This document shows, in pieces, positions 16,441-57,740 of a DNA stretch of 64,000 nt (within the stretch, counting starts at the first letter, position 1; every line of letters starts with the position of its first letter). A model generated the notes under the pieces. That model ran no database searches. It was not told the DNA's origin and was given only the letters and a program-made list of their open reading frames with translations. The stretch is from Pagrus major (lineage: Eukaryota; Chordata; Actinopteri; Spariformes; Sparidae), in contig NC_133232.1 in assembly GCF_040436345.1 (NCBI RefSeq), positions 28,645,315 to 28,709,314 of the forward strand, in the 5' to 3' direction. A program made the position numbers and the translations under genes.

Positions 16441-18241
16441 CCTCCACATGTTAAAAACCACATGCACTGGTTTGGCTGCTTTCTAATGCTGATGCTTTGC
16501 TGTTAAGATCTGCAACAGGAGAATAATTATGCCAGCAATTTTCTAAACGAGAGTAACTAACTGTCTGTTCTGTAATTGTCTGCGTGTCCCTCGACGTCTG
16601 CTCGCTGCTTTCTTTTATTTCAACGCCATATCTCTTTAAGTGCGACTGACATCACTCAGAGTTGCTTAGTCAATCAGTTAGTCATCGAATGAAAAGGTCA
16701 GCCGCTCAGTCGACAAAATGACCACAGAGGCGGTCAGCTGGGCAGCCAGTCAGCCAGTCCAGAAAAGGATGATCAGGCTATGCAGCCCAAAACCCCTTTG
16801 TGAGTATCCTGTACCTGCTTGTTGCCATGGCAATGCAGTCCGAGACTTAAATACTAGCCTGTGTCCCCTCCCTTCCTTTCTTTTATCCTCTTCTTTTCAC
16901 TCCTCCGGACTCTCCCCTCGCCTTTTTTATCAGTCAGAACGCTGACTCTCTCTGTCCCTCAGTCATCTTTCCTCTGGCACTGTTGTTTTTTCAGTCTCCC
17001 TCCGTCACCTTGCCTCGTCCTCTCTGCTAAATGACACTTTACTAGCTGTTTCCTCTTGTTAATTCCACACTACTTTGCATCGTGCGACTCTGTAAACGCT
17101 CTTGTAAAACATGCACCCGGACGCAAAGTCGCCTCTACAGACACACAGAGACAAATTACAATTACTTGCTGTGTACACACACACATAATTACTTAAGCAT
17201 TTGTAGGCAGATGTATGCGTGAATGCTTGCGAGCACACACACAAGTAATAACGCCATAAATGAGAGTCAACAATCAACATATTCACAGGATGCTGGCACA
17301 GCTTACACCTGCTGACAGTCAGCTGCCAATAGAGATCTATCATTCTCTGCTAAAGCCTCATCATCAAGCATCATTTAGGCATGCTGGCCTGCCTCGCTCT
17401 CCCCTGACACACTGTCTGTGCCAAGACACCGATTAAATTTCCCCCAAATGCACAAACAGCCTTGTGGGAAAAGGTCTTCAGCAGATGAACTGGCTTTGGG
17501 CTCCACCTAATGGTCACTAGAAAGACTCTTATCCTAGTTCTGAGTGCTGGGAAACAACAACTGGCGTGAGCAAATGTTAACCCTGTCTTTGAAACACTAC
17601 GAGATTTGGTATCAGCCTTTCTGTTTATTCAGCCCAGTGATGATGACTTAGATTACAGTTTGTGTAACTCATTTTATAAATGAGCACTATTACATCGGTT
17701 TGCCTCTGGAAAGCCCAAAATATAGTAAATAAACACGTTTTCCTCATACGCATTGATATTTTCATTATTGTTCATCTAGGTCCAATTTTCTTATTACCTG
17801 TATGGCATTTTTTCTTTTTTCACTGAGTCAAAAATGATTTAATACCAGAAAAACATTTGAGTGAGCTTGCATTTTGACAAACAAAACAAAGGCGCAAGGA
17901 TATGTCGAAAAAGGATGACCTTAAAAAAATATCTCGATGGGTAGTTTATTGAAGCTGACGGCTGGAAAGACATTTTTATTAAACTAGCAATGATTATTCC
18001 TTTGTGTTCTCTCTCTCTTGTATGTTTTCTATATAATTATATAATGACTATATGAAGATGAAGTAGGATCAAGTATTTTATTCATTTATGTACTATTTTT
18101 TTCTCTTTAATGTTTTTTTAGCTAGGTTGTAGGGCCTGTTGTTGAAGGTTGTGATAATATAAAGGTGTTTGTATCAGGATGTATCAGTTTGATTTTGTAT
18201 TTGGTATTGTTGGATTTCCTGTTTACCCTGTACACTGCAGA

Positions 18242-18860
18242 CTTCTCCCACCAATCACCCCACCGCCATCTACAAAATCCTCTGACAACTCTGCTGTCGT
18301 CGGCCTCGTCAGGGACGGGGACGACAGAGCCTACAGAGAACTTATTCAGGACTTTGTGGACTGGTGCCAGCGGAACCACCTCCAGCTCAACGCCAGGAAG
18401 ACCAAAGAGCTGGCTGCACACAGGTGAACATCCAGGGAATGGACAGATGGTGACATCTTACAAGTACCTGGGAGTTCACCTGAACAATAAACTGGACTGG
18501 ACTGATCACGCTGCAGCAACCTATAATAAAGGTCAGAGCAGACTCCATCTGCTGAGGAAGCTCAGGTCCTTTGGAGTGCAGGGGGCACTCCTGAGGACTT
18601 TCTATGACTCTGTGGTGGCATCAGCCATTTTCTATGGAGTAGTCTGCTGGAGCAGCAGCATCTCGGCAGCAGATAAGAAGAGACTTGATAAACTTATCAA
18701 GAAGGCCAGCTCCATCCTGGGATGCCCTCTTAACCCAGTGCAGATGGTGTGAGAGAGCAGGATGATGGATAAGCTATCTTTTGGTTTAGGACTGTCAGGA
18801 GGACAAAATAAGAAATCTGAAGACACAACTCAGGTCTCCGGACTAACTTGTGATACCGGT
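18242..18860 (+). mobile_element. 5'-truncated LINE reverse transcriptase remnant
   Basis: Two adjoining frames carry RT-like sequence. The first (18270-18425) has SDNSAVVGLVRDGDDRAYREL and HLQLNARKTKEL; the second (18420-18752) has YKYLGVHLNNKLDWT, LRKLRSFGVQGALLRTFYDS and KASSILGCPL. A frameshift near 18420 separates them, and the catalytic DD motif has decayed. It is a dead copy of a CR1/L2-like LINE inside macrod1 intron 3. Confidence 0.8.
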
Positions 18861-25425: not shown

Positions 25426-26243
25426 TCACACTGGACATGTTGCCAGAATCAACTCACTCATCCAGCGTGTGTGTGTGTGTATGTGTGGCAGTGCTACTCA
25501 GTATCATGTGATATTGAACCATGAGTTAAAGCCTTTTTTCCTCACAGCTGATTTGTCTAAATTATGATTGTCATTTGTCCTCTCTTTTTGTCATTTACTA
25601 TCTGCAATGTCCTGGTGAACTGGAGTGAGCTATCAAGTTACCAACAACTATAATAGACATTTTTTTAAAGCAACATTAAGTCACTTTTTACCTTATAATA
25701 ACAGCTTCTGAAGTATCATAAAACTCCAGTCGTCACTTTTTATGCACCGATATGAAGTTCTTTAGAAAACATTCATTGATATCAAAAATACTTTACTTAC
25801 TTAAAGTTCATAATTCTTCAGTCATGACACTAAATGAATAATTGCTTAAATGCTAAATTTGGGATTGCAATACATTTGAACATTTTTCATGTTAGACTTA
25901 GTACAAATGTAGTTGGCAGTTTAATCAATGTGGCAGAAAAACAAATGAAAGAGTAGCCTCACTGAAGTGATTCATCATAAGTATTATTTATCTACTTGTC
26001 CTTCACTGCTTTGTCTGAGCTGTCCCATATTTTTGCTCAACAAAAACACAAAAAAATAACATTTGTCAAGCATAGCAGATCATTTAAAGAGCATTTGTTT
26101 AGCAGCCTTTCATAATGATTTGTCAACAGTCTGACAATATAACTAAATCTCACTCTCTCCATGTTTATCTGTCCTGCTTTCTACTGTCTCCTCTTCTCCG
26201 TCAGACCTGTCTCCTGTAGATCTCTCTCTCTCTTTCTCCCAGT

Positions 26244-29200
26244 ATGGCGGCGTGGGACCTGTCAGTCACAGTGGAGGAACTGGGCCCTGATGCGCCTCCT
26301 GTCACCCTCAGCGTGGCCTCTGAGCTCCATGTTGGAGGGGTCATCCTCAAGCTGGTGGAAAAGACACGTGGGTCACTCTCTGTCTGCCTGTGTTTGTCTC
26401 CGTCTTTCTCTCAGACACTAAAAATAGTTACATCATTTGCATGGGCATGCAGGAATTCACATACAGTGTATAGTTAACACTCTAAATGAGAGTCATGATA
26501 CACCCTACATACATTAAATCATCATGAGTCATTCATTATTTAAGCATGTGTTTGGTAACCTTACTATGTTACCAGTGTGACATATATACTCCTCTGTTTG
26601 TTTGTGCCTTCAAACATTTTCATCCAAAGTAATAAGAGTATCTTCCGCCTGTGGCTGAACACAAATAGCAAACTCCCTGTCTTCTTATTACATACGTCAT
26701 GCACTCAACAATCAGCACATAGTGGTTACTTCAAATGCAATCCAGGCACTCCAAAAAAGAAAATATCAAGAAACAAGGAAGGAAAGCCCGGATGAAGACC
26801 AGACGGTCGAAACATGTTGGCTTTTTGAATGATTTCACTTTTAATGATTTAGAACGATAATAAAGGCTTTTTAATTATTTAGTTAGTTAGTTATTAGTAG
26901 TTAGTTATTAGACTATTAAACAAGCTTAACATCTCTTTGAAATGTGTTGTTTCACCTGTTCAGTGAGGGAATCTGCAGACTCTGTGGCGCAACGGTAGCG
27001 CGTCTGACTCCAGATCAGAAGGTTGCGTGTTCAAATCACGTCAGGGTCAAATCTTTAAATGTGATGTTAATATCTAAATAAAAACAGAAATCTAAAAAGG
27101 TGAGTGTAGACTATATTGACCTCTTGTCTGCCAGACCGGCATGAAAGAAAACTAAACTGTGGAATGGAACAAAGAAACCTTTCCTTTTTCCTCACCCCCG
27201 ACTCTCATTTATCAACAAGCGTATTTGGTTTGTAAGCTGATAAATGGATGAAATTGCTGTTAAAGTTAGACTCTGTGGCGCAACGGTAGCGCGTCTGACT
27301 CCAGATCAGAAGGTTGCGTGTTCAAATCACGTCAGGGTCAAATCTTTAAATGTGATGTGAATATCTAAATAAAAACAGAAATCTAAAAAGGTGAGTGTAG
27401 ACTATATTGACCTCTTGTCTGCCAGACCGGCATGAAAGAAAACTAAACTGTGGAATGGAACAAAGAAACCTTTCCTTTTTCCTCACCCCCAACTCTCATT
27501 TATCAACAAGCGTATTTGGTTTGTAAGCTGATAAATGGATGAAATTGCTGTTAAAGTTAGACTCTGTGGCGCAACGGTAGCGCGTCTGACTCCAGATCAG
27601 AAGGTTGCGTGTTCAAATCACGTCAGGGTCAAATCTTTGGGATGAAAACAAAGAAACTAAATGGCTTTTAGAAAACCTAAAACTTGTCGTCCGGGTGCGA
27701 GAAGGACATGAATAAAGAAAACTGCGATCATTCACTGTGAGTGTAGTAGAGTGTGAGCTCTTAACTGGACCAGTTGGGTGACAGAAATAGACTCTGTGGC
27801 GCAACGGTAGCGCGTCTGACTCCAGATCAGAAGGTTGCGTGTTCAAATCACGTCAGGGTCAAATTTCTTTTTGACAGTAAGTGTCCTGGTTGATGAAAAC
27901 TGTCAAATATGCTTTCTAGATATGTTTGGTCTTCAAGCTTGTGGTGCTTGTGGGCAAAAAATTGTGTAGGATGCTCTTGGAAAACGGGAGAATTGAAAGT
28001 GAATCAAAAGACAATCCAGGGACTCCAAAACAGAAAATATCAAAAAAGAAAATAATTTAAAAGCCTCTATTGTTGTGGCTAAATCATTAAAAGTACAATC
28101 ATTAAAAAGCCGACATGTTTCAACCGTGAGGTCTTCATCTGGGCTTTCCTTCCTCATGTCTTGGTGTTTTATTTTTTGGAGTGTCTGGATTGCCTGGACT
28201 TTATCTTTGGTTGTTTCCTTTTTGTTTCCTTGTTTCCTCACTTTACTTCCTTGTGTCTTTCTTTTGCTTCCTTACTTTGTTTCATTTCCTTGTTTTCTGT
28301 CTTTGTTTCGTTGATTTGTTTCTTTCTTTTGGTTCCTTAAAGTAAAATGTATGACTGAGCTTAGTGTCCACACTACAAGGATGAAGACTAAACATACCTA
28401 GAAGTCACATTTGTTTCACACACTGCTTTGCCTGTTGTCATTAAACAGTCACACACACTGTTTTCTGAATTTCATCATAAGTAAAGGTTGACCCTAACAT
28501 GATTTGAATAGGTAACCTTCTGATTTGGAGTCAGTTGCACCACCTTTACGCCACAGTGTCTGTAAACAGCTCCACCGAACAGTCAAAAACAATTTGACAA
28601 TGCATTTCACAGAGTCGTACAAAATGTGTAATTACTTCTCTATATCAGCCTTTTAACCATTTTCTGACAGTTTATTTTCTAGCTGAATCATTTATCAAAG
28701 AGGTTGTCTATCCAGTTCTTGAGGTGAGAAACTCTCTGGACTAAATGCTCATGGTACTTGACAGATATACCTAATTTAAGAACCATCTGCTAAACTGAAT
28801 ATCAGAAGAAGTAACATTGACCCTGACGTGATTTGAACACGCAACCTTCTGATCTGGAGTCAGACGCGCTACCGTTGCGCCACAGAGTCTAGCATTCTGT
28901 TGATCAAATGAGCCAGAAGGACTTCAAGGTGCATTTCACTAAGACCTTTAAAATGTGTAATATGATGTCATCATTAATCAATTTCTTCTTAAGTATCACT
29001 ACTGTCAGTTTGATTTCTAGTAGAATAATTTGCTTCTATTTTAATTCCTCAGATGTCCAGACTGATAATCTTGGTCTGTGAGAGGTATATAACCTAAATG
29101 TCAGTTAAAAACATCCAAGGTAACAGAAACAATGACCCTGACGTGATTTGAAGACACAACCTTCTGATCTGGAGTCAGACGCGCTACCATTGCGGAGTCT

Positions 29201-32200
29201 ATTTTTGTTACCCAACCGGTCCATTTAAGAGCTCACACGCTACTACACTCACAGTGAATGCCTGCAGTACGCAGGCAGGCATTCACTGTGAGTGTAGTAG
29301 AGTGTGAGCTCTTAAATGGACCGATAAACGGACCGATAAAGAAAAACCGATAAAGAAAAATGAACATTTCTCACCTCTGCCTGCGTACTGCAGAGGTGAG
29401 AAATGCTCATTTTTCTTTATCGGTATCTTTCTTGCACCCAGAACAGGTTTTAGGTTTTCTAAAAGCCCTTGAGTTTCTATGTTTTCATCACAAAGGTTTG
29501 ACCCTGACGTGATTTGAACACGCAACCTTCTGATCTGGAGTCAGACGCGCTACCGTTGCGCCACAGAGTCTAGTTGTTGTGATTAATTCATCCATTTATC
29601 AGCTTGCAAACCAAATATGCTTGTTGATAAACGAGAGTTGGGGGTGTGGCAAAGGAAAGGTTTCTTTGTTCCATCCAACAGTTTTGTTTTCTTTCGCGTC
29701 CGTCTTGCAGACAAGAGGTCGATAGTGTCTACACTCACCTTTTTAGATTTCTGTTTTTATTTAGATATTGTCATCACATTTAAAGATTTGACCCTGACGT
29801 GATTTGAACACGCAACCTTCTGATCTGGAGTCAGACGCGCTACCGTTGCGCCACAGAGTCTGGAAACTAGGGGGTTAAACACCCGCAAAAAACTTTAACG
29901 TTGTGTGTTCAAATTACGTCAGGGTCAAAACTTTGTGATGAAAATACAGAAAATAAATGGCTTTTATAAAAACAAAAACTTGCCTTCCGGTTGCAAGAAG
30001 GACAGGAATAAAGAAAACCAAAGATTTCTTACCTGTGCCTAGCTCTGGCTGGGTGTTTCAATCAATCACCGTGCATGTATGGTTTGTTAGCTCTTTACTT
30101 ATCAGCTAACAAACCAAATATGCTTGTTGTTGATAAATGAGAGTTGGGGGTGTGGCAAAGGAAATGTTTCTTTATTCCATCCAACAGTTTTGTTTTCTTT
30201 CCCGTCCGTCTTGCAGACAAGTGGTCGATACTGTCTACACTCAACTTTTTAGGCTTTTGTTTTCATTTAGATATTCCCATCACATTCAAAGATTTGACCC
30301 TGACGTGATTTGAACACGCAACCTTCTGATCTGGAGTCAGACGCGCTACCGTTGCGCCACAGAGTCTGAAAAGCTGTGGGCCAAACATCCATAAAGAACA
30401 TGACAATGCATTTTTATTTTATTTACTTTTAAAGAGACGTTTAAAATAAAAAATGTAATTACCTCTTCATATTACCTTTAATCTTGTTCTTTTAAACTGA
30501 TAATATCATTGTCTAACTGCTGGGTTATTTCCCCGTAGAATCATTTCCCTCTATTATAATTCTGCCGCTGTCCTGTCCTCGAGGTGAGAAAGTCTCCAGA
30601 TGGACGACCTTGGCGCAGACAGCTATCACCTCGTCATATGTTTAACAGAGCCACACAAATATTGACCCAGTGAGATTTGGACATGCATCCTTCTGATCTG
30701 GAGTCAGACGTGCTACCGTCACACCACAGAGTCTGTGAAATGGCTGAATAAACAGGCAAAAAGAACTTGAAAAATGAATTTCACAGAGACCTTTTAAATG
30801 TGTGATTATTCATCTACATCAGCCTTAATCTGTTTCTTTAGTTGATAGCATTATTTTTCTGACTGACAGTTTAATTAGAAGAACTATTTAATTGTCCAAC
30901 ATTAGCCACTGTGCAGTCCTGTATGTGAAAATACCTCCACACTGATGACCTTGATAATTGACAGATGTATCTAATTTAGCAGCACCACAGAAGCAGTAAT
31001 AATGATGCTGACGTGATTTGAAATACGCAACCTTGCGCCACAGAGTCTATTTTTGTCTGTCAACCGGTACATTTAAGAGCTCACACTCTACTACACTCAG
31101 TGAATGATTGCAATACACAGGCAGAGGTGAGAAATGTTCAGTTTTCTTTATTTTTGCCCTTCTTGCACCCGTAACAGGTTTTAGGTTTTCTAAAAGCCAT
31201 TTAGTTTCTTCAAAGATTTGACCCTGACGTGATTTGAACACGCAACCTTCTGATCTGGAGTCAGACGCGCTACCGTTGCGCCACAGAGTCCATTTTTGGC
31301 AGCTAATTCATCCAGTTATCACCTAACAGACCAAACACTCCTGCTGATAAATTGACGTTGGGGGTGAGGCAAAGAAAAAGGTTTCTGTGTTTCACCCAAC
31401 ATGTTTTCTTTCATGTCCGTCTTGCAGACAAGAGGTCAATACTGTCTGGACTCATCTTTTTCAGCTTCTGTTTTCATTTAGATATTCTCATCACATTTAA
31501 AGATATGACACTGCATGATTTTGAAGATGCAATCTTCTGATCTGAAGTCAGACACACTGCCGTTGCGCCACAGAGTCTGAAATCCAAGTAGTTTAACATC
31601 CTCAGAGAACTTGCCAATGCATTTTTTTTTTTTTTTTTTTTGAGCATTTAAAATGTGTGACACACAGTCTATTTTTGAAGGCCAATTCAACCACTTATCA
31701 GCTTACAGACCAAACATTTGTGGTGGTACAGTCAGTCCATAATGTTTACACATCCAGGGGTTTCAAGGCTACTGTTGAGTTTTTGAGGCAAAAAAAAGTC
31801 TGCACTGTGGAAGAGAATTTTCAGTTTTGTTCTGTGATTAAAGAACACAACTCCTGACTTCACATCAGTGCTTGAAGATAATTGATGCTGACTGTGTTTC
31901 ACTTTGCAGTGACATCTGTTTTGTGTCTGTCCTCTGCAGAAATCAAGCGTGATTGGTCAGACCATGCGCTGTGGTGGGAGCAGAAGCAGTGCTGGCTGCT
32001 GCGGACAGCCTGGACTCTGGAGAAATATGGCATCCACGCCGACGCCAAGCTTTTCTTCATGCCCCAGCACAAGCCCCTGAGGCTGTGTCTGCCCAACGGC
32101 ATTACCCTGAGGCTCCGAGCCTGCTTCTCCAACCCCGTCTTCCAGACCGTCATGGGCATCTGCAGAATGCTCAGTGAGCCACAGCTTCTTTCTTTCTTTC

Positions 32201-35200
32201 CTTTTGCTGACTGTCCACACGACATCCGCTACGACTGAACATGTGCTAAAGTAATACTGACAGTTGGTTTGTGCACCTAATTCCACATTCTTGTTAAGAG
32301 GTAATACACACAGCACTTTTTTTTATTCTCCACAAAGAAGGGTGACCAGAAACTGACCCTGACGTGATTTGAAAACATAACTTTCTGATTTGGAGTCAGA
32401 CGCACTACCGTTGCACCAGAAAGTCTAAACAACACCCATTAAACTTGTGAGAGGCTTAACACCGTAGGGAGGGGGTGAATTGACAACATTTTTATCTAGT
32501 TGTTAGTTTAATGGCCAGTGATTTATGTTCACCTGTCCAGTTGTTCAGGAACCACTTTCCAGTTCTTAAGATGGTAAAAAGACGACAGAAATGTTGGCCT
32601 CTTGTACTTCAACCATACATGCAATGCAAACAACAGCCATAGTGGGCTCTCTTTAGGCGGTCATAGACATTAATCACTGTCGTTGGTTAAATTTCATTAA
32701 CAAAGCAGTGACCCTGATGTGATTTGAAGATGCAACCTTCTGATCTGGAGTCAGACGTGCTACCATTGCGCCACAGAGTCTGATCTGTAATATGAACAAA
32801 ATGAGACACAATCAAAATGTTTGATGACTTATAGATATGACTGTTCATGTGTTTCTTTTAAATTGATATTATTATCAACTTTTAGTTCTATCAGAATTCC
32901 TCCACTGTCGGTCCTTGAAGTGATCTGAGTTCTTGTATTTAACCTACACATCATCCCTTAACCAGAGCCACATAAATAGATTTACTGACCCTGACGTGAT
33001 TTGAACACGCAACCTTCTGATCTGGAGTCAGACGCGCTACCGTTGCGCCACAGAGTCCATGTGACAAACCACGAAAAAAGCCAACCAGACTTGAAATGTA
33101 TTTCACAGAGACGATTGAGATGTTTGGTCACTTATCTGAACTAACTTATCTTAAATTGATTTCATCAACATTTGATTCTATTATAATTCCTCCACTGTCA
33201 AGTCCTTAAGGTGAACTCAACATATACTGTTGGTCATTCGCTGTTCCCATAATAATCAGACTTTCCCTTCTCTGTGTTTTATTTCTGTCATTATTAAAGC
33301 TGAGGCAAAGTCAGTCTGTTTGATGAAAAATAATTTCATTTCCTCTCTGTTACCAAAACAGATATCCGTCACCCTGAGGAGCTTTCGCTTCTTCGGCCCG
33401 TGGAGCACAAAAAGAAGAAGAAAGATAAGGACTCAGCTGAGGAGATCTATGACCTGACCGAGGTGCCCCTCTCCTCGGGTACATTCATCACTCTTCATTC
33501 ACACTGCAGACTTGACATGCGCACATTTTTATAACTGATGGCCCTGAGCAAAAAACTGCCAAGATTTTTTCCTTGACCCCAAATTCACCAGTTTGTCAAG
33601 AATATGGTTTTTACAGCTTTGACTTGCCTTTAGCACTTTACCATCAATACAGAAATTGCTTCGATGTCCTTACAGTTGTTTCTACATCGTCATAGCAGAT
33701 CAGGTGAACTATATGTGACAACAATAATCACTGTTTCTAGAGTCATGTTTTGCCTCTGAGATTTAGGTATTTGGGATGACGAGGACTGAGATCAGTACTA
33801 CTCAAAAGGCTTTATACACACACAAAGTGTACATGATCTACCTGTGAATGATCCAAAGAGAATATTAATATTAATGAATACAGCTATTTTCTTAAGCAGC
33901 TACTGTACATTTTAAGGCAGAAATACATAAGTCAGACTTTTGACTCAGTATCTACTCCCCTGGAAAGTTTGACCGTAACCCTCCTGCACTTCTTTTGCAG
34001 TATCTCGGCCCTGTCTCTATAACGGCATGCCGGCTCACTTCGCTGACTCACCTCAGATGGAGGCCATCTACAAGATGCTGTCAGTCACCCAGCCTCCCCC
34101 TGCCCCCGAGGTCGTAGCCAAGCAGTACCGCCCAGCCAGCGTGGTGGACAAGGCCCACATCCATGGCAGGTATGCCTTCACACATCAGTATGGTTCATCC
34201 TTCATTTATGTAAGTATCAACAACAGTCTGTAGAAAGATTTTGACACCATCGCAGTGAAAAGCGACAGCTTACAAAAGAGGAACAAAAACTCGGATCTTT
34301 ATCCACTTTCTCTTTTTAACTCACAGCTCACCCTTTAATTTAAACACTGTGTACAGACATAATAACATCATGTTCAGGTTCTCCTGAGGTCACACGTAGA
34401 GTAGAAACCTGACTTTGTTAGACAGTTGCTGTGTGAATGAGAGCTGTATAATCAAGCGCACACAGGTGCATGTTGTTTGGCTAATTGGGCTCCAGTGGAA
34501 AATTAGAGCTTGTGCCAACCAATTACTTGTCAAGCATGTTGACTCAGTGGTTAGAGCTGTTGTCTCACCATAAAAAAGCCCCCAGTTCAATCCTTATTAT
34601 AGGCAACAGTATTGTTCGCTAACAAATATGTCCTGTTTGTCAACACTAATCAAGGCACACGCTGATCGTTTAAGTTGGATCATTGAACAAAAGTTTCTGT
34701 TTTTACCAGACTACGCTGCAGTCACAGGTGTATGTGTTTAGCTAATTAAATCGAAGAAAGAGTTCCGTTCAGCTGCCTCCAAACTCTGTCTTTTTAACAT
34801 GTTTGTTGATAGAGATACTATTACCACTGCCCTAAATTGGATTATAATTTGTGCTCTTTAACGGGTTTCAGGCTTTATGATATGCACGGAAGCCCTCCAC
34901 TTTCACTCTCTACAGTGAGCACGCTCAACTTTTTGCCAGGCTGATTATTTCTCTTCCCATTTTCTTTCTCTCTCCCACTGTCCCCTTCTCAAGTTCAAAC
35001 CCTAACCTACTTTAAACTAAACTTGGTCATTGTTGCAAAAGCAAGCATAAAACATTATGTTTTAAAAAACCATGACAATGACAAATGAGAATTTAGATGA
35101 AACAAATGTTAACTAGATTTCTACTTAGTAGAGTGCATACCTCCACCTAGGCCCAAAAGTCCCTTTTAATTCAATCCCCAAAGTGAGAAGAAAATTCCTG

Positions 35201-45852: not shown

Positions 45853-46510
45853 GGTAGGAACATTTTCATCGTACCCAAGAAAAACGGGAGGGTTTAACTC
45901 GGAGTCGATGCTGGCTGTTTCCGGGTAACTTACAACTCGTGCTCATGTGTCCACACAGAAAACCCGGAGAGCTGCCGATGATGGGATTTTACACAGAGGC
46001 TGAGCTAACTCGGCTAATCAGTGTTAGCATAGTTGAGCTGTGGCTGCCTGTTTTTCTTGACAGGCAGCCTCGTCATTTGGGTCGTCTGTATTACATATGG
46101 CATGCTGTTTGACAAGTTTATTTCTACTTTAGCCACGTGTTCTTGGCTTTCTTTGCATAAAGTTGGCGTTTCAAATTGTGGTTTAGCTCCGACACGAAAC
46201 TGCTAGTTGACAGAAAGGCACGTCACCATGGAAACGTAACGTTAACGGACGACTCTCAACTAGAAAATACATTTCCTGGAGTAAACACGGCGTGAATACT
46301 TACAGATAAATGAGTTTTAAAGTACTGCTGGAACTGCAGAAATTAATTATCTGAAGGAACCCGTATCCCTGGTACTGTACAGCTTGTGTCCTAAAATATT
46401 TTCCTTCTAAGTTGTTACATGTTTATGTTATTGCTGTTTTAAGATGCTAATTTTTCCTTAACTCGGCTAAGCATGAATGTGCCTTTTGATGTCCTTATGG
46501 TGGATAAAAC

Positions 46511-46862
46511 ATGATAAAGTGCCCTCTAGGGTGCCCTTCCAATGGAGAAAACGTAATGAAGTGCCTCCCAGGATGCGCTTCCAGTGGAGAAAATGTGATT
46601 AAGAGCCCTCTAGGGTGCCCTTCGTATGGAGAAAACATGATAAAGTGCCCTCCACGGTGCACGTCCAGGCAACAAAACATGATAAAGTGCCCTCTAGGGT
46701 GCCCTTCCAGTGGAGAAAACATGATAAAGTGCCCTCCAGGGTGCACGTCCAGTGGAGAAAACATGATAAAGTGCCCTCCAGGGTGCACGTCCAGGGAACA
46801 AAAAATGTTAAAGTGCCCTACAATGTGCGCTTCCCGTGGAGAAAACATGATAAAGTGCCCTC
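46511..46862. repeat. 42-bp minisatellite, 8.4 copies
   Basis: Units of 42 bp start at 46511, 46553, 46595, 46637, 46679, 46721, 46763 and 46805, then a partial unit. A decayed extra unit precedes at about 46469. Because 42 is divisible by 3, frames on both strands stay open. It lies in the zbtb3 leader intron. Confidence 0.93.
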
Positions 46863-47690: not shown

Positions 47691-47984
47691 AAGTATAATC
47701 CACACACCTCATTTTACACAGTTTTCAGGAGGACTGTTTCTTCTTTTAAGAAAAGAACCAGCAGGTGCAGCCAAAACTATCTGCTTGGTTTTATGCCTTT
47801 AGTGGTATGTGAGATGACTGAATGTTACATTTGAGCTAGCTGTTACTTTCTAAACAAATCATAGAGAACTGACAACAAAACCACTCATACTTTTTGCAGC
47901 TGAATATGACAGTGCAGTGACATCAGCATTGTCTCTTTCTGTCCCCGTTTTCTCTCATTTTAATCTGTCTCTGCTGCTCAGGTG

Positions 47985-50856
47985 ATGGAGTTCCCCCAGC
48001 ATTCCCAGCAGCTGCTGTCAGCTCTGTGCTCCCAGCGCCAGCGGGGCTTCCTCTGTGACTGCACTGTCCTGGTCGGCTCATCCCGTTTCCTGGCTCACAG
48101 GGCTGTTTTGGCCTCCTGCTCGCCTTTTTTCCACATGTTCTACTCAGACTCTCCAGGGATTAGTGGTGGAAATGGCACCAGCAGCTCCGTCACACTCGAC
48201 AGCGACATTGTCACGGCTGCTGCATTTGGCATGCTCTTGGACTTTGTCTATGAAGGGGTGCTGCGGCTGGATGAGGCTCCACCAGTGGAGGACATATTGG
48301 CTGCTGCAAGCTTTCTGCACATGAACGAGGTGGTGAGAGTGTGTAAAAGACGACTGCAGAGACGAGGGCCTCTGGCTGAGGCAGACAGTACTCGCTCTGA
48401 AGAGAGTGGTGGGGCGAGGAGGGCAATAGAGACAGGAAGGGAGGGTGGGGGTGATGGTGGAGCTGAGCCTGCGGTGGCCATGGCAGGAGATCACTCGAAT
48501 CTTGTCGCCATGGCAGCGCCACTTTCCTCAGTGTCAGTTTCAGCAGAGAGGAGTCCGTTGGAGTGTGAGCGGAGGACTGGTAGGGGGTCATCAGAGACAC
48601 GAGTTCAGACTCCTTTGAGCCCTGACCTTGCTGACACCACGCAGCCAGGCATGGACGCCCCTCCTCTGCCCCCAGGTGGAGAGCTGGTGCAGGGCCTCAT
48701 GGTGGGCCCGTCTGCCCTTACATCAGGAGGTTACACCAGGTTGAGGGCTGGAGGTCATGGAGAGGGGTCGGTACTCTGCAGCCCTTGCAGCACCACTGAG
48801 ACATACAGGTATGGGTCGGTTGGGAATTTCTAGACTGTTCTAACTTGAAAAAAATAGGAACACTCCAAAAACAACAGTTTACTCTGAATATTAGAATATA
48901 ATATAATATAATATTTAAGCCGTTATTTAAAATCGAACCATTGAAGTTGCACTCATTTACAATGATGTTGAGTTACTGTTAAGTTAAAATAGGACAAAAA
49001 CAAATAAAAAAACAGTAAGAATCGGTTCATTTAAAGTTTAAAGTTCAAAGCAGAATAAAAGCAGAAAAGAAGTTGAAAGAGCATGCGAATCACAATCAGA
49101 AACTCCATTCAAAAAGTACAATACATTTAAAAAATAAGAAAACATAACAAGCTCATTGAGTTAACTTTTTGTTATTAACCATACAGCTCATGTGAGATGC
49201 TCTCATAAATTCTGCCTTTTGAATCAAGTGTTTTTTTTATTATTTATAATTCCTTAGCCTATTTATTGTTTATTATTAAAGCCAGCTGACATTTGGCATC
49301 TATATCCAGGAACTCTCATGCGATGAACAGCAATATAATATCTTAAATTCCAAGTCTAAACTGATATCATGTAGGTCTGTATATAATTGTATTTAACAAT
49401 ACTGATATGCATCCCAAGATAGTACTTTTTCTGGAGGATCAGTTTTTAGATAAATCCAGATGGGTATAGCTTTTAATCAATCCTCAATCAGTCCTGTTCT
49501 TTGATTTGCAACAATAATCTGTTCTGACTGGAGATATTAAAGACATTTTTTTAAATCAACTTTCAGTGTATATTGTCCGATCTAATTCCCCCACAAAAAC
49601 ATCATAGAAAGTAAGCAAAATAAAAGTGAAAATTATGCCCAATATTTAGATGAAAGTGTAGTTTGACACCTTTAGTTTAAGTGCACTCTTCTCTATGTAC
49701 ACTGGGTTGTTTCTCCATGTACTGATGGACATTTTTACAATTTGTTGTTAAGAAACGGTTGTTTACAGAACATCCTCTTTTGTTTCTGTTGTTCACCAGC
49801 CACAGCAGTAACCAGCAGCCCTCCTCTTCTTCCTCCATGGTGCCAGTGAGCCAGGCTTCTGGTCCATCAGCGGTTGCTCAGTCCCAGTCAGGGTCCAGCC
49901 TTTCCCCCAGCCCCCATCATGACTCTGTAAGGAAACCCTCAGAGACTGGCCACAGAGGTACATCAAGTGGAGGACAACAGATGGTCATGTTAATCCAATC
50001 ATCATCACTAGTGTCAAACTTAGAAACAAACCCGACAAACTCGCCTCCACAGCGTGCAACTCCCCAGATTCGAATCCAGAGTGCTGTGTCACTCCAACGC
50101 CAAAGCTTGAACTTCCACATTTCTGAAACCCAAACCATTAAGAGACCTGAGAGGGATATGAGAGCTATGGGCCATGTGAGGACAGATGACAATGATGGAG
50201 AGAATGTGAAAGTCAAAGTGGAGGCCATTGTTATATCGGACGAGGAGTTAGAGGAGGAGAGAGAGGAAAGCAGGGAGGGGGAACCAGTAATGGAAGTAGA
50301 CGATGAGTTTGGGGATGACATGCAAGAAGAGGAGCTGAACGACCCTCAGTTTCTCTCCTCCCACCAACAGGATCTCCTACAAATGTCATTCAAAAGCCAT
50401 TCAAATGACTACTCCTTCCCTCTCTCTCCCTCCTCCTCCTCCTCCGGTGCTGGGCCTTCCTCCCAGGACACTTCCTCCTTCACCGCCTCTCTCATTCCTT
50501 CATCTGCAGCTCAGCATCATTCAGACCACCCTGCCTACTTTCAGGACTTTCAGGACTCTATGGGGAACATTGTGGAGGATGTTCCCACATGTGGAGTCTG
50601 TGGAAAGACTTTCTCATGTACATACACACTAAGGCGCCATGCCATTGTACACACACGTGAACGTCCGTACGAGTGTCGCTACTGCTACCGGAGCTACACA
50701 CAATCAGGCGACCTGTACCGACACATTCGCAAAGCTCATGACCACACGCTGCCGGCCAAACGCAGCAAGTCAGACATGGAGCCGTCCCTGCCAACACAAC
50801 CACCACAACAACAACAACAACAACCACCACCACCACCACCACCTTCTCTGAGCTAG
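47985..50856 (+). CDS. zbtb3: zbtb3, BTB/POZ and C2H2 zinc finger protein
   Basis: Two coding exons, 47985-48808 and 49800-50856, join in phase (ACA TAC AG|C) to 626 residues. The start is the ATG right after an acceptor (AG at 47980-47981), so the 5' leader is spliced. The BTB domain covers about residues 1-120 ([25 protein letters not shown]...[19 protein letters not shown]). The middle is low complexity. An acidic stretch near 420-455 is preceded by VKVE (a SUMO consensus) and IVISDEE (a SIM-like motif). Two C2H2 fingers follow at about 538-560 and 566-588 ([10 protein letters not shown]...RRHAIVH and [10 protein letters not shown]...RHIRKAH). The tail has poly-Q then poly-P. Two fingers at the C-terminus with this BTB fits ZBTB3 (human 574 residues) better than ZBTB18/42, which have four. 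Role: sequence-specific nuclear transcription regulator. Confidence 0.88.
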
Positions 50857-53040
50857 CATTCAAACAGACACACTGTGGTATTTCTATACTTATACACAAC
50901 TTGATATCCTAACTCTAATTCTGCCTTTAAACCTAAATCAGGTGGGGCTGCGACAAATGATTATTTTCTGGATTAATCAATTAGTTTTTAAAAATCACCC
51001 AAATCACCTCCAAATGTCCTGTCATGTCTGACCAACAGTTCGAAACTAAAAAATATTTAGTTTGCTATCAAAAGAGACTAAAGGAACTGGTAAAGTAGAA
51101 ACTGTTACCAGAGGATGTTTGCATTTTTTCTTTAAAAAAATCAACTCAAAACTATTAGAGCTGTTATGACAATAAATAATAAGGATGAAATGTACTCACT
51201 TTGAATAATTTTCCATCTTAAACTGTCAAAATTCAGATTAAGAAATATCAGGCCTCAATTCATGGTCTTCATTTCAGTCATCCAAAACATTTAACTGATT
51301 TTATTTATATATTCATTTTCTTTTTCAGCATTAAACACAACAGCTACTAACCTCAGGCTTTTGCATCCTTTGCATTCTCACTAATCAAATGACCAAAGTT
51401 TTGTATAAAGCCCTCTCAACAAGTAACTTTGACTCTGTTGGCACCTATTTAAAAAGAAAGTGGCACAGTTTCCACTAGATGACACCTCTCAATTGAAACC
51501 TTCTGGCTCAATTTTTAAAAAAAAAATCTAAATATTTTTATATTTGTAAACACCCTGAATACACCCTGGCTTTCTATTATACTGAGGACATTTATGCCTA
51601 TAAGTACAGAAATACGATAACTCATACAGGCACACATTCAGAGTAAACACCAGCGGTGTGGCAGTGATATAAGAGCTCATTCATCACACCCTTTATGTTC
51701 ATGTATGACCATTGTCTCACTAGAACTGATTGATTTTAATCGATGTTTATATTTAAAATTGATTTTATGACATTGTGCTACTCTTTTACGGTTTTGTTTG
51801 TATTTTTTCACAAGAGTCACAAGATGTACAAAAATCTCTCAAAGACTTGTGTGACATCCCACAGCTGGTGTTTGCTACTCAAAACAGTAATAAGGGAAAG
51901 CTGTTGTATTTTTTTATCAGTTACATGAAATGTAATGTGTACGACTGCCTTTTTAGCGTGTGGCTTTTAGCCCGCAAAGTTTGTCTGTAACTGTAGTAGA
52001 ATTGTACTGTCTGTGTTTTATTTAGTGGATGAAACCAACTGTTGACTTAGAAGGAAATACCTGCACACATTTTAAAATTACAGTCAGATAGTGCATCAGT
52101 TTTGATGAGGCCACTTAATCAACAGCAGATGTACACAGATGTTTATCCAGTGAAGTAGGAAATCAACTGTGCCAAATGGCCTTTCTTTTGCCTTGTTTGT
52201 TTATCTTCTTTGTCCTTCCTTTTTTTCTTTTAAGCAAGAAATCTTGAGGATTGCTTAATGGGCCAGCTGACTCAAGAGTAATATCAGAGTGGCAGCTATA
52301 CAAACTAATGACATTCTTTAAATGCTGAAGAAAGGTGCTTAATTTCTCCTCTGCGTTAGAAAGACAGGACAATATCTTACATTAACAAGATTGTGGCCCA
52401 ACAATTTTCTGCTCCAGAAGTTTTTACCTGACGAACCATTTCATGCATTTCCAGTGGCTGTCCAGTAGTCTTCTGTAAATTCAGTCAGATCGCTTTGCAC
52501 TGTGGCTGTCTTGTCCAAACTTGTGATTTTGCGACTAATTTCATGCACCTTGCTTGACATTCGGGGTCAATTAATAGTTTAGGAATAGGAAACTGGTGTA
52601 TTGTTCAGTTTCCAGCCTATATCCCCTGGTAGGATAGCAGTGGAGGAGTGAATACGTTTGGGGATTCACCCTTAATGTGTTTGGCTTTTCTTACTGGCCA
52701 TGTGAGCTTTCCTTCTGTAGTGTTTCTCCTGTAGTATGACAGAATATACAGTTTGAGCACACTTTGACACCTACAGTAATTCTGCCGTCTCTTTAAATGT
52801 TTAAATTGAAACTTTAAATGTGCCTGAATGACTTTTTTGACACTTTGAATTTGTTGTCCTGCACCAGGTTTTACAGTCTCTGTACAATGAAAATGGACTA
52901 GTATTGGTAGTTACATACAAACCTAAGAGTTTTACACAGATATTCATAGGTTCACAGAGTCAGTGATTCCTTAGAGGGCTTCATGGTAGCTAGTGTGCAA
53001 AAAGCTCAATGTCACCTTGTGAATAAACACTGTTCAGTAG
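50857..53040 (+). other. zbtb3 3' untranslated region
   Basis: No further coding exon is seen. An AATAAA at 53022-53027 could end the transcript. The start holds an old fish repeat (GGGGCTGCGACAAATGATTATTTTCTGGATTAATC at 50943). Confidence 0.5.
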
Positions 53041-53118
53041 AAACAATGTGTAAGTAAATATTGTATTGTTTCAGTGATATCACACAATGCACTGGCCAGT
53101 CAATTTTATCTTTTTTTT

Positions 53119-53124
53119 TTTATT
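53119..53124 (-). terminator. rnaseh2c polyadenylation signal
   Basis: TTTATT on plus reads AATAAA on minus, about 185 bp beyond the rnaseh2c stop and within 100 bp of the candidate zbtb3 end. Confidence 0.45.
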
Positions 53125-53305
53125 TCACTACAAAAAGAACATATACAAAAATATAAACATTACATCTGTGATTGATTGCTCTGCCACAGTAACACTTGAC
53201 CTGGTCAGCATTTCTTAAATCTTCTCATGTCTGTAGCCAGTAACCAGCAAACTGTACATTTCATTCCTAACACGATGGGGTGATGCCAACCTGCCACCTC
53301 TGTCT

Positions 53306-55182
53306 TCAGTCATCTACTGGCCCGTGGATCTGTAAAGAGAGAAAATATCAGCATCCATCTACATCAAATGTATCTGCCTCTGTGTCCTTGTATTTTAATG
53401 ATATTCGGATGAAATATTGTTGTAAATGCAGCTGTTTCTGTCAATTTGACAGTATTTGTTAAACTGAGGAAAAACAATAAAAAGGACAACTGTTCCAACA
53501 GAAATTTCTTCAACCCAGAAATACATTTTTTATTTTAACCATATTGTTTATCTACTTCTGCAGGTGGTGAGCATGTGGTAGGACACAAAGGTAATAGGCT
53601 GTAGAATTAATTTTAACAGCTTACATGACAGAGACATGTGTTGTTGTTTTTTATATGAAAATTATTGTAAGTAAATCAGACTAGGTTTATTCATCACAAC
53701 AAAAATCAGTTTACAAGGACATTACAAATTTACTAATTAAAATTTGTTAAGTAAAAATGTGGATAAAGAAGACTTCATCCCAATAACTTTACTAATCCTG
53801 CTTAATGAGACAAGCCACTCATCGCTCAAAAAACAAGTTAAAGACTTGAAATACTTTCTTTTTTTACTTAGTCCTTTGAGACATGCTTGTGCTTAAAGGT
53901 TACATATTACTGTAAATAAAGGACCTCGCCATTAACTATAGCCTACATAATGATTAAACCAGGCTTTTTAAAGTCAGCTGTAAAAAAAAAAAAAAGACTC
54001 ACTGCCTCAGCCAACTCTGGCCAATCCATTGCCATCACAACTGTATCATCAGAGTTTGGAGGTGTCTCCAGGTTCCAGTAGGTCAGCTTGTCAAACACAG
54101 AGGATAACCTCACTGTCCTGTCCTGGACAGACAGACAGACAGACACAGACACAGACACACACACAACATTTAGCATCATGTAGACATAGTAACAACCTGT
54201 ATTCCCCATGCAGTCAGTGCTTTGTCATATATTTTTCTTAAGCGTGACATCAGTGATATTTACCTCTTGGTCCGAGCCAGGCTTGTCGATCTCTTTCAGC
54301 ACTAAGCCAGTGTAGCCCTGTGGACAGCTGAGCTCCTGCCCCTTCAACCCACGCCCTCTGAAAGACACTGTCTTCTCTGCAACAGGAAAAATAAACAAGA
54401 GTTGTAAGAGACAGTTTTCCTCCACTTTAAACGATTGATATTGAAATGTTGAGATATCCCTTTCTAAATCTGTGACTAGTTGAAGTCCTTAACTACTAGA
54501 TAGATTTTGAAACCATTCCTCATTAAATCATGGCATCCTAAATCACTTACCAAGAGCTGTAGATTATACATTTGGAATGATAATGCTACTTAAATTGATT
54601 TGTAAAGACAAGTAACTTATCCATTCCCTCATAATGAGGATCGCGGTGGAACAAACACCGATCCTGACCTGGGATCTATCTGAACTAAAGAAGCACAACA
54701 ATCTTTGAAACAGATGGGTCAAACAGCTGGATACCAGTACACTTTTATCTTTGGGACAAAAGACCCATATTGGGTCTAGTGGTTATAAGAGAAAGCAGCA
54801 TATAATGGTTCAAACCAGTATCTTTACACGACTGTCCAATTAAAACATGGTCACCAGTGTATAGACAGATTTAGAGAAATTTAGAATTGACCTTCCAGCT
54901 GTAACATTACGAGAAGAAAGGAGAAACTCCACATTTGGTGATATGTTTGATGGTTTTTATCTCCACCATTGTTTTCTATGAACTGGTTCAATAGAAATGA
55001 CAAGACATCAAACATATTCTGCGTTTACCATGTTTGCGGTCTTTAGTGGTGGCAGCGATGTATTGTGAGACCTGGGCCGGCCCATCGTGTTCAATCTCAC
55101 AGGGCATCAGGTGGACTGTGGCTCTCTGTGCCTGGCCCACAGATGACACCTGAACACGAGTAACACTTGTGTTACAGGACAT
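53306..55182 (-). CDS. rnaseh2c: rnaseh2c, ribonuclease H2 subunit C
   Basis: Four minus-strand exons join in phase to 136 residues: 55182-55029, 54376-54264, 54122-54003, 53329-53306. RNase H2C is the non-catalytic subunit that, with subunit B, scaffolds RNase H2A for removing ribonucleotides and RNA:DNA hybrids. Recognisable segments are [57 protein letters not shown] and MDWPELAEA, aligning with human LHLLPCEVAVDGPA, VSFRGRCLRG, FSRFTLWGLETIPG and LTWPSLAAA. The final exon encodes only IHGPVDD-stop, matching human IHAQVPED. Human RNASEH2C is 164 residues, so the fish protein is shorter, mostly at the N-terminus and in the acidic linker. An acceptor at 55191-55192 precedes the ATG by about 8 nt, so the leader is spliced. 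Confidence 0.93.
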
Positions 55183-55708
55183 CCTGCAACCTGAAGACAG
55201 AAGAGGACAAAACACACAAATGATAACAAGTTACACTCTTGTATTCCATTTAAACCAAAAATGTCTTTTAACATAACAAGCAGCCTCAGCAACCTTTACT
55301 GTGAAGGGTTTTTTTCCCCCCCAACTAAAACTAGTTATCACTATTTATTAACTGCAGGTGTCACTAAAGGGTTGTTATCCCTCTCTGTTGATGTAAGTTA
55401 ACCTGACTAACTTTAATTATGGCACAGTTCGTTAATATGTACAATGAATCATATTCTGAAGGCTTCTATAACAAGTGCTTTTGTGGATAAACATCAGTAT
55501 CAGAAGCTGTCAAGTCTTTAATAACTCCTTGTCAGGCCGAAGTGTGGGAGCTTTTACACAAACCAGTGCAGACTTTCCCTAAAATAAACGGCTTCGCTTA
55601 TAAAATATTTTGTCATATTAGCGTGATTTATCAGTTCCTCTTAAACATTGTCAAACATGCTGTTAAATTACTACAAAGGCGATTTGTAAAACATTACTCA
55701 AACATTAC

Positions 55709-55872
55709 CTTTCAGCAGTTTTCCAAACGTTTAAGCGAAATGAAATGTAAAATTGGACCTCTTCCGGTTTGCGCCAGTCGCTGCGTGTGATTGGACGAGA
55801 GCGTCTTCTTCTACGCTCGTAGATATTTTGGCGGGTTCTTTCTGTTCGGCCAGAGGAGGCCTCCCCCCTTTG
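55709..55872. promoter_or_regulatory. bidirectional promoter rnaseh2c/bscl2
   Basis: On minus a leader exon can end at GAAAG|GTAATG (near 55709). On plus one can end at TTTG|GTGAGA (near 55872). Between them are an ETS site (CTTCCGG, 55761-55767), two inverted CCAAT boxes (ATTGG near 55752 and 55790) and a perfect E2F site TTTGGCGGG (55827-55835). Use of the plus side for bscl2 is inferred; an alternative bscl2 leader exon could end at GCAGAG|GTGAGT near 57109. Confidence 0.5.
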
Positions 55873-57680
55873 GTGAGACATTACTTTCCCACTTTTCTTA
55901 CCTTTTCTCTGCCTTTCTCTAAACTTTTGTGTTTTATTATGCCTTTCTCCAAACGTTTATTGAGTACATATCTAATTTTGAAAATTACTTACTCTGTGTT
56001 ACATTACATCTTGATATTGTACTCATGTAATAATGTAGTAATGACGACTGAGTAGTCACAAACCAAGATAGTTTGTTTATAAATCTGCCAAAGTCTATCA
56101 ATGTTTATGTTCTCCAGCTTATCCATTCACTCTCTAGTTTATGTATACTGGTCAAGATCATAGACATTTCTGCACTTCCCTCTATTATTGAAGGAACTTT
56201 AAATGTTTTAGATTTCTAAAATAGTGCTCAAAAACTATATATACTCAAAAAATAATTTCCTTGCTGTAGTGGTGAATCACTGTAAAATTGATACAGAGTA
56301 AATGCTGCATAAAGTCACTGTTTTAGGCAAATTATTTAGATTCTTGTAAGGCTACATGAATTTGAAGATAACATCAGGTAATAGGAGATGTAGTCTCTTG
56401 GAAGTTTAAAATGAAGACTCTCTAAATGCAATGCGGGATCATGGTGTAAAGATCCAGATGTCTTTATGTAATACCAGCTCTTGAAATAGTCCATTTTACT
56501 TTAGCGGAGCATTGTGGCAACGACACGTGTATAAACAATTGAGATACCTTTTCACAATCACGTGAACATGTTTGGCATTTGGGGGTGTCATCGGACAGCA
56601 TCACAATTCAGGAGCGATATGTTGGGAAATTAGAGCTTTGGAGCACATTTAGCAGCAATGTAGAAAAGAAAAAGACACAAAAACATGAAAATCTCAGCAA
56701 TTTAATGCACATAACAGTAAGTATATATATGGATAAAATATGGATTAGGCCAAAGGATGTGCAAAAATACAATAAATGAATTAACTCAAAATATAGACTG
56801 CCCATCATCCAGCATTTTGATTGAAGACAATGGACTGATCAGTTTTAACAACTGCCAAAACAAAATATAACCCCGGCCGTGTTGTCAGAGTCACGTTCAA
56901 CATTCAGAACTCTGTCCCAGTTGGCAGCAGCATCTCTCTTCATATGGGATGGGCTAAACCCTGTCCAATGGCAGCTTTCTAGGAGCTAAGGATAAGTTAT
57001 AGGGGCGGTTTTCTGTTCATAACATTTCCCCAGGACAGTGGCAAGCTGTGGACCAAGAGACTTCAGGGAAAGGAGAAGTGATTTCCTAACAGCTCAGAGT
57101 TGGGCAGAGGTGAGTTTTTTATAGCGAGACAGCACACTGTTGCAAGTATGCTGCTGTTGGATACCACATGGATGTTTTAACTACACTGTTTTCTTGAAGT
57201 TTGGATTTGAATGTTGAGTTAAAATGCTGTAGTATCCCTGCACCCGAGCATAACTCTTGATCTGGAAGTAAGTCTGTTCAGCAAGTTGGTACTCCCTTCC
57301 TGTTTTGATATATCAGTAAATACCATTAAAAAACAGAGTCGGTGTCATGCCTCTCAATACATGTAATACAGTCAGACTGAAGTCATCTGATATGAAAGGC
57401 CTCTGCTTGTGACTCTGATTGGTCTCTGTGGTTTTGCAGCATGAGAGCGGTGTTTGTGTCTGAGGCTCCATGAGATCATAATATCCTTAACCGCACTGAG
57501 TTTGATATGACATTAAACAGACAAGGCATAGATCTTCTTTCACACAACAACCAGATAACCTTTAGAGTATTAGTCAAGCGTTGTACTCACGAGGATCACT
57601 GTGGAGCTAGCCTCAGCCAAACTGAGTCAGTAGCTACAGTCCTTTTGATTACTGATGTGATTGCCCTTACCTTCCTGGGT

Positions 57681-57708
57681 TGTTTTTGTTTGTTTGTTTG
57701 TTTGTTTT
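57681..57708. repeat. (TTTG)n tract before bscl2 exon acceptor
   Basis: Six TTTG-like repeats form the pyrimidine-rich tract before the acceptor of the first coding exon. Confidence 0.8.
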
Positions 57709-57740
57709 ATTTGTGTGGCTTTGCAGCTGTTCCTGGTATT

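Follow-up and report, generated by a model that had tools for sequence, protein, structure and literature searches.

A cluster of genes for tryptophan transfer RNA (tRNA-Trp, anticodon CCA) was found in a stretch of 64,000 nucleotides (nt) of the Pagrus major genome (contig NC_133232.1; C18:28645315-28709314), hereafter called the window. The cluster spans about 6 kb (26978-33057 in window coordinates) within two introns of a gene that is, judging by its predicted exons, fermt3, and comprises ten intact copies, seven decayed or internally deleted copies and a half copy of 31 nt (Table 1). We consider it likely, with a probability of roughly 0.8, that this fermt3-nested cluster grew by local duplication and was pruned by decay, with purifying selection acting on the ten intact genes. 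The cluster is real and mechanistically ordinary, and its location is unusual but has precedent. Two features described below, a pair of inverted repeats bracketing part of the cluster and the missing runs of four T residues (T4) that usually serve as terminators, are new with respect to the first-pass annotation, an earlier account of the same window.

An exact search of the window recovered the same 72 nt throughout the ten intact copies, four on the plus strand and six on the minus strand. All ten have a cloverleaf and a CCA anticodon, as expected of a eukaryotic tRNA-Trp gene. Each scored 68.3 bits with the Rfam tRNA model (expectation value, E, 8.9e-13), so chance origin is not an issue. 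The gathering score of the model was exceeded at 15 copy sites of the cluster. ARAGORN made 12 calls in the window, 11 for Trp and one for selenocysteine (SeC), the latter corresponding to decayed copy 31506 (copies are named by their first position). Sensitive blastn of the window placed all seven decayed copies on the minus strand. The first-pass annotation had listed ten identical copies in these orientations, and this was borne out by exact search, ARAGORN and Rfam; its six decayed or internally deleted copies, one mildly decayed copy and half copy were likewise recovered by blastn. A strand bias in orientation or decay was considered (4/4 full plus-strand copies intact versus 6/13 on the minus strand) and set aside, as the numbers are too small. 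The folding energy of an intact gene was only slightly better than that of its own shuffles (z -1.65) and was not used as evidence. A scan for bacterial promoters and terminators, whose model is inapplicable to this genome, gave no excess over shuffles.

The copies are separated by few kinds of spacer. Two sets of minus-strand copies, 31506, 31219, 31003 and 30663 and then 29789, 29499, 29133 and 28818, follow the order gene-A-gene-B-gene-C-gene; the two modules are only 65% identical in the spacer C stretch. The plus-strand block (26977-27864) has the order gene-A-gene-A-gene-B-gene and is 90-92% identical to the second minus-strand module over overlapping inverted arms of 373 and 458 nt. Its first two units form a 291-bp tandem duplication with 99% identity. 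The duplicates vary in age, spacer A pairs being 99% to 80% identical and older parts about 65-75%, and seven copies have decayed. Differently aged duplicates beside pseudogenes are the pattern of birth-and-death evolution, and the proposal of such evolution in the first-pass annotation is supported by these modules and by the several stages of decay. It is proposed that the cluster expands by local duplication of gene-A-gene-B-gene-C-gene modules within the fermt3 introns, the 291-bp unit of gene and spacer A having been duplicated recently in tandem. The ten intact copies would be working RNA polymerase III (Pol III) genes under purifying selection, and the decayed copies would have lost function.

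The mixed orientation of the cluster can be explained by a single small inversion, because an inverted pair of dispersed-repeat copies brackets all four plus-strand genes. These two copies (26737-26880 and 28007-28193) are the sole strong matches of the repeat to each other within the window, and the repeat is present on many contigs genome-wide (best 40 of 101 candidates scored). Between them lie all four full plus-strand tRNA genes and no minus-strand copy. Flipping the bracketed segment brings every full copy onto one strand and preserves the A-B order. We infer that the plus-strand block arose when this segment was flipped once through recombination between the two repeat copies. Two further inverted structures were noted. 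The arms at 26976-27724 and 29408-29862 (373-458 nt, 90-92%) lie in one fermt3 intron, so that the pre-mRNA might fold there into long double-stranded RNA. A near-perfect palindrome at 29217-29323 (107 nt, 93% identical to its own reverse complement) adjoins the deleted copy 29133 and looks like a template-switch or foldback scar.

Spacer A was used as a neutral reference for the gene bodies. Five copies of it were aligned and a tree was built from 195 homologous columns, over which the tandem pair differed by 1% and all other pairs by 8-20%. From summed branch lengths, about 13.5 changes would be expected under neutrality in the four intact genes 5' of spacer A and about 21 in the four intact genes 3' of it (gene 27269 belongs to both sets); zero were observed in either. 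The untrimmed tree gave expectations of 21.8 and 23.7, respectively. The gene bodies are thus constrained, as expected of tRNA-Trp genes. For decayed copy 31506, 11 of 73 columns differ, gaps included, and about 11 changes are expected from its spacer branch of 0.154.

To place the cluster in its genomic context, the whole genome (785,883,843 bases, 25 contigs) was searched with the 72-nt gene. Blastn gave at least 41 matches, at least 12 of them full-length and exact; both counts are lower bounds, as the best 40 of 41 candidates were scored. Among the scored matches, the exact full-length ones were the ten of the array and single copies at C17:28.22M and C16:9.67M, whose flanks have no clear homology. 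A 29-nt core pattern with up to 3 mismatches was found at 37 places, 22 of them exact (reversed control, 0), and the array holds 14 of the 37 and 11 of the 22. All 37 places are on C16-C19. The same approach gave 21 places for initiator tRNA-Met (C7, C17 and C18) and 7 for a Lys core (C14), so that genes were concentrated on few chromosomes in all three tRNA families examined. Every other place from the blastn and pattern lists was fetched and rescored with Rfam. This count of tRNA-Trp genes elsewhere, which the first-pass annotation had suggested, gave 13 genes of at least 65 bits outside the array against 10 inside it, making the array the largest locus (10/23). The earlier remark that tRNA-Trp genes are usually few needs context in a genome with 37 tRNA-Trp-like places. 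Two other clusters, C18:26.73M and C17:21.97M, received five ARAGORN calls each. The former, 1.9 Mb away, contains three identical copies with their own acceptor stem (GACCTTG), a private isodecoder; the latter contains several fragments. A tRNA-Trp-like copy at C19:9.246M (L017, 7605-7676; 88%, 60 bits) carries the anticodon CAA (Leu), probably an anticodon shift in a decaying copy.

The presence of several decayed copies at one place might recall a family of short interspersed nuclear elements (SINEs) derived from tRNA-Trp. However, the blastn and pattern matches are very few for 786 Mb, the printed flanks have no common tail and ten copies score as full tRNAs. A SINE origin, which has practically no chance of being correct, was rejected on copy number and flanks.

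Several points weigh against the proposed explanation, gene conversion among them. The first-pass annotation had named conversion as the force keeping the ten copies identical. All ten are the same over 72 nt while the C18:26.73M cluster has its own GACCTTG-type variant, and gene conversion is called an important contributor to the concerted evolution of tRNA genes (PMC4981973). In intact pairs, spacer divergence 3' of the gene was 0.096 in each of the first two 25-nt bins, 0.15-0.17 in bins three and four and 0.08-0.12 in bins five to eight. The final bin was left out, as spacer 30295 is non-homologous there and inflates the value. The bins next to the genes are thus somewhat lower than the following 50 nt, though equal to the far bins, and the first bin was also among the lowest in pairs with 31506 (0.10, remaining bins 0.10-0.36). 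A weak halo of identity on the 3' side is possible, the test being one-sided and weak. Conversion confined to intact genes is also possible and would mimic selection. Furthermore, the spacers next to active tRNA genes may depart from neutrality and may mutate faster than average. In addition, half copy 29897 stays on the opposite strand even after the inversion is undone, the inversion itself is proposed from this one genome, and the working status of the ten genes is predicted from their sequence.

Conversion should nevertheless pull decayed copies back to the common sequence, and in the one copy tested, 31506, the body had not been repaired while its spacer diverged by 17-20% from the others. 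No clear halo was seen around the genes (3' side, five spacer copies), since divergence in intact pairs was as low at 126-200 nt as directly beside the genes. Identical bodies also stand singly on C16 and C17. Because 31506 drifted unconverted, the halo is not clear, the cluster 1.9 Mb away keeps a private isodecoder and identical single copies are unlinked, the comparison favours purifying selection on each gene as the simpler and chief reason why the ten bodies are identical. That array members are instead kept alike by conversion, as claimed earlier, appears unlikely and was not supported as the main force.

The terminators form a second group of points against working genes. Only one of the ten intact copies (27790) is followed within 12 nt by a T4 or a longer T-run. 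The T4 lies at 24-35 nt for copies 27560, 29499 and 31219 and at 136 nt or more for the other six, so that nine copies lack it within 12 nt and six within 100 nt. A T4 close downstream is usual, though not universal, for tRNA genes, and the array as a whole does not follow this rule; weak termination might result. CTTT occurs within the first nine nt of eight intact copies (all except 28818 and 32986) and also behind unlinked tRNA-Trp copies (e.g. L011, L012, L015 and L016). The trailers vary among several copies, those of 26978 and 27269 by a single base over the first 50, which makes most copies distinguishable. Among high-scoring tRNA-Trp genes, 4/23 have a T4 within 12 nt, compared with 11/13 initiator tRNA-Met copies, these being the ones matched in ten fetched stretches out of the 21 pattern places; the Fisher p of 0.0002 overstates the evidence because copies within a cluster are related. 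Either a short T-run suffices or the genes yield long pre-tRNAs. Non-canonical terminators are known for human Pol III genes, and for this reason the copies still count as tRNA genes.

Misassembly, named in the first-pass annotation as what would overturn it, was weighed against the same alignments. One unit pair is 99% identical over 291 bp and inverted arms reach 458 nt, as might be left by copies multiplied or misplaced in assembly. The other spacer A copies differ too much for this to be likely, exons of fermt3 stand in their proper order on both sides of the array and within it, and the array sits on a 38-Mb contig. An artefact is therefore very unlikely for the cluster as a whole, although the tandem pair by itself could be a copy-number error.

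The assignment of the host gene was based on predicted exons. A 77-residue exon (31942-32172) matched kindlin-3 structure chains best (E 5e-32), followed by kindlin-2 (E 1e-27) and kindlin-1 (E 2e-18). One continuous reading frame runs across the three exons of Table 1, and more kindlin-like exons were seen by eye downstream on the plus strand to about 41.8 kb. Fourteen of the 17 copies, nine of them intact, lie in the intron after the first of these exons, and three, one of them intact, in the following intron. The array was previously assigned to introns 1 and 2 of fermt3; two adjacent introns of this gene indeed hold it, but the numbers may be one too low. An acceptor-like CAG immediately precedes position 26243, so an additional exon probably lies upstream.

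Nested in this way, the genes may be controlled by the fermt3 promoter, or may affect fermt3 splicing or elongation, which would link tRNA-Trp supply to blood cells. The array holds 10/23 of the high-scoring genes, and the intronic gene sup-7 of Caenorhabditis elegans depends on its host promoter (PMC4999229). On the other hand, intronic tRNA genes of C. elegans occur at chance frequency and show lower Pol III occupancy (PMC4999229). The exact single copy on C17 (C17:28219264-28219335) is flanked by two same-strand stretches that each encode one half of a homeodomain (by motif, with a Pfam homeodomain match for one half). We take this homeobox gene to be meox. An intronic tRNA-Trp gene is thus not special to fermt3; the coding-looking frames near the C16:9.67M copy had no Pfam match. 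Control by the host, or an effect on it, seems improbable. Slightly less probable still is that the main tRNA-Trp locus of this vertebrate has been kept in the introns of a haematopoietic gene, coupling fermt3 transcription with the tRNA-Trp supply of blood cells; if true, this would be a vertebrate equivalent of the C. elegans case, in which a host promoter governs a tRNA-Trp gene lying in an intron. That Pol III traffic disturbs transcription of fermt3 by RNA polymerase II (Pol II), as suggested earlier, is a guess. Under the duplication-and-selection explanation, the role of the array would be tRNA-Trp supply, and no link with fermt3 beyond common DNA is required.

Clustering of this kind is familiar in teleosts, in which 87% of stickleback and 65% of zebrafish tRNA loci are in clusters, and clusters of fifty and more genes with fast turnover have been described (PMC2888827). 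As in those clusters, many genes and pseudogenes of the fermt3 array lie within 1 kb of each other. Zebrafish pairs mostly join mixed amino acids and are nearly all parallel, and in pufferfish and medaka most loci stand alone (PMC2888827). The fermt3 array differs in that it serves one amino acid, has genes on both strands and is housed in two introns of a protein-coding gene. Its intronic location has a parallel in C. elegans, where introns hold 7/12 tRNA-Trp genes and 44-47% of tRNA genes overall (PMC4999229). The overall share is no more than expected by chance, intronic tRNA genes lie on either host strand, and eight tRNA-Trp genes are 100% identical and differ in tissue expression (PMC4999229). 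Across Caenorhabditis, 32-52% of tRNA-host pairings are conserved, and host-promoter control is reported there for one gene, sup-7 in C03B1.2 (PMC4999229). Identical tRNA-Trp genes, an intronic position and the use of both host strands are common to C. elegans (PMC4999229) and the fermt3 array, but in the latter, an array known from sequence only, a single host holds ten identical copies. Tandemly repeated tRNA genes in one large local cluster are also found in the Arabidopsis SYY Ser/Tyr cluster, which unlike the fermt3 array covers two amino acids, lies at constitutive heterochromatin and is silent in most tissues (PMC12308677). Most of the tRNA genes predicted in zebrafish seem to be inactive in the early embryo, where tRNA levels do not follow from copy number (PMC11574265), which calls for caution in reading function from the copy number of the array. 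A literature search, to which subscription papers were mostly inaccessible, found no paper pairing fermt3 with tRNA-Trp and no title on such an array.

With ten constrained genes beside drifting sisters and spacers that serve as an internal clock, the cluster is a small natural experiment on the persistence of a tRNA gene family. A large part of the tRNA-Trp genes of one genome lies inside a lineage-specific Pol II gene, which makes coupling of Pol II and Pol III testable in a vertebrate. Should neither coupling nor conservation be found, it would be an ordinary cluster of tRNA genes, placed in an intron by chance.

Table 1. Features of the tRNA-Trp cluster and its surroundings, in window coordinates.
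Feature	Position	Strand	Evidence
fermt3 coding exon (...LVEKT), first recognisable; donor GT at 26368	26243..26367	+	in-frame join with 31940 exon
Dispersed repeat, shorter copy (35-nt terminal inverted repeats), in opposite orientation to 28007 copy	26737..26880	-	86% identical
tRNA-Trp(CCA), intact	26978..27049	+	ARAGORN, Rfam 68.3 bits, exact search
tRNA-Trp(CCA), intact; 291-bp tandem duplicate of unit at 26977	27269..27340	+	ARAGORN, Rfam, exact search
tRNA-Trp(CCA), intact	27560..27631	+	ARAGORN, Rfam, exact search
tRNA-Trp(CCA), intact	27790..27861	+	ARAGORN, Rfam, exact search
Dispersed repeat, second copy	28007..28193	+	repeat comparison
Decayed tRNA-Trp, 82%	28489..28560	-	Rfam 37 bits, blastn
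tRNA-Trp(CCA), intact	28818..28889	-	ARAGORN, Rfam, exact search
tRNA-Trp minus 5 nt near 5' end, few substitutions; 95% over 62 blastn-aligned nt	29133..29199	-	sequence, blastn
tRNA-Trp(CCA), intact	29499..29570	-	ARAGORN, Rfam, exact search
tRNA-Trp(CCA), intact	29789..29860	-	ARAGORN, Rfam, exact search
Half tRNA-Trp copy, 31 nt (3' part), then spacer B	29897..29927	+	blastn
tRNA-Trp(CCA), intact	30295..30366	-	ARAGORN, Rfam, exact search
Decayed tRNA-Trp, 85%	30663..30733	-	Rfam 31.4 bits, blastn
tRNA-Trp with large internal deletion	31003..31047	-	blastn
tRNA-Trp(CCA), intact	31219..31290	-	ARAGORN, Rfam, exact search
Decayed tRNA-Trp, 85%; ARAGORN label tRNA-SeC	31506..31577	-	ARAGORN, Rfam, blastn
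fermt3 coding exon for kindlin N-terminal region; interrupts tRNA array	31940..32173	+	kindlin-3 match, splicing frame
Decayed tRNA-Trp, 88%	32354..32425	-	Rfam 39.5 bits, blastn
Mildly decayed tRNA-Trp, 93%	32709..32780	-	Rfam 42.1 bits, blastn
tRNA-Trp(CCA), intact	32986..33057	-	ARAGORN, Rfam, exact search
Next fermt3 coding exon	33362..33477	+	splicing frame

Other features were noted elsewhere in the window. The region downstream of fermt3 (47964-58010) contains frames of BTB and zinc-finger type as well as a seipin-like exon, a neighbourhood that presumably shares synteny with human 11q12-13. An open frame of 208 amino acids at 18126-18752 resembles, by eye, a fragment of a non-LTR (non-long terminal repeat) retroelement. 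A 42-bp minisatellite of 8.6 copies occupies 46500-46862, with long open frames over both strands.

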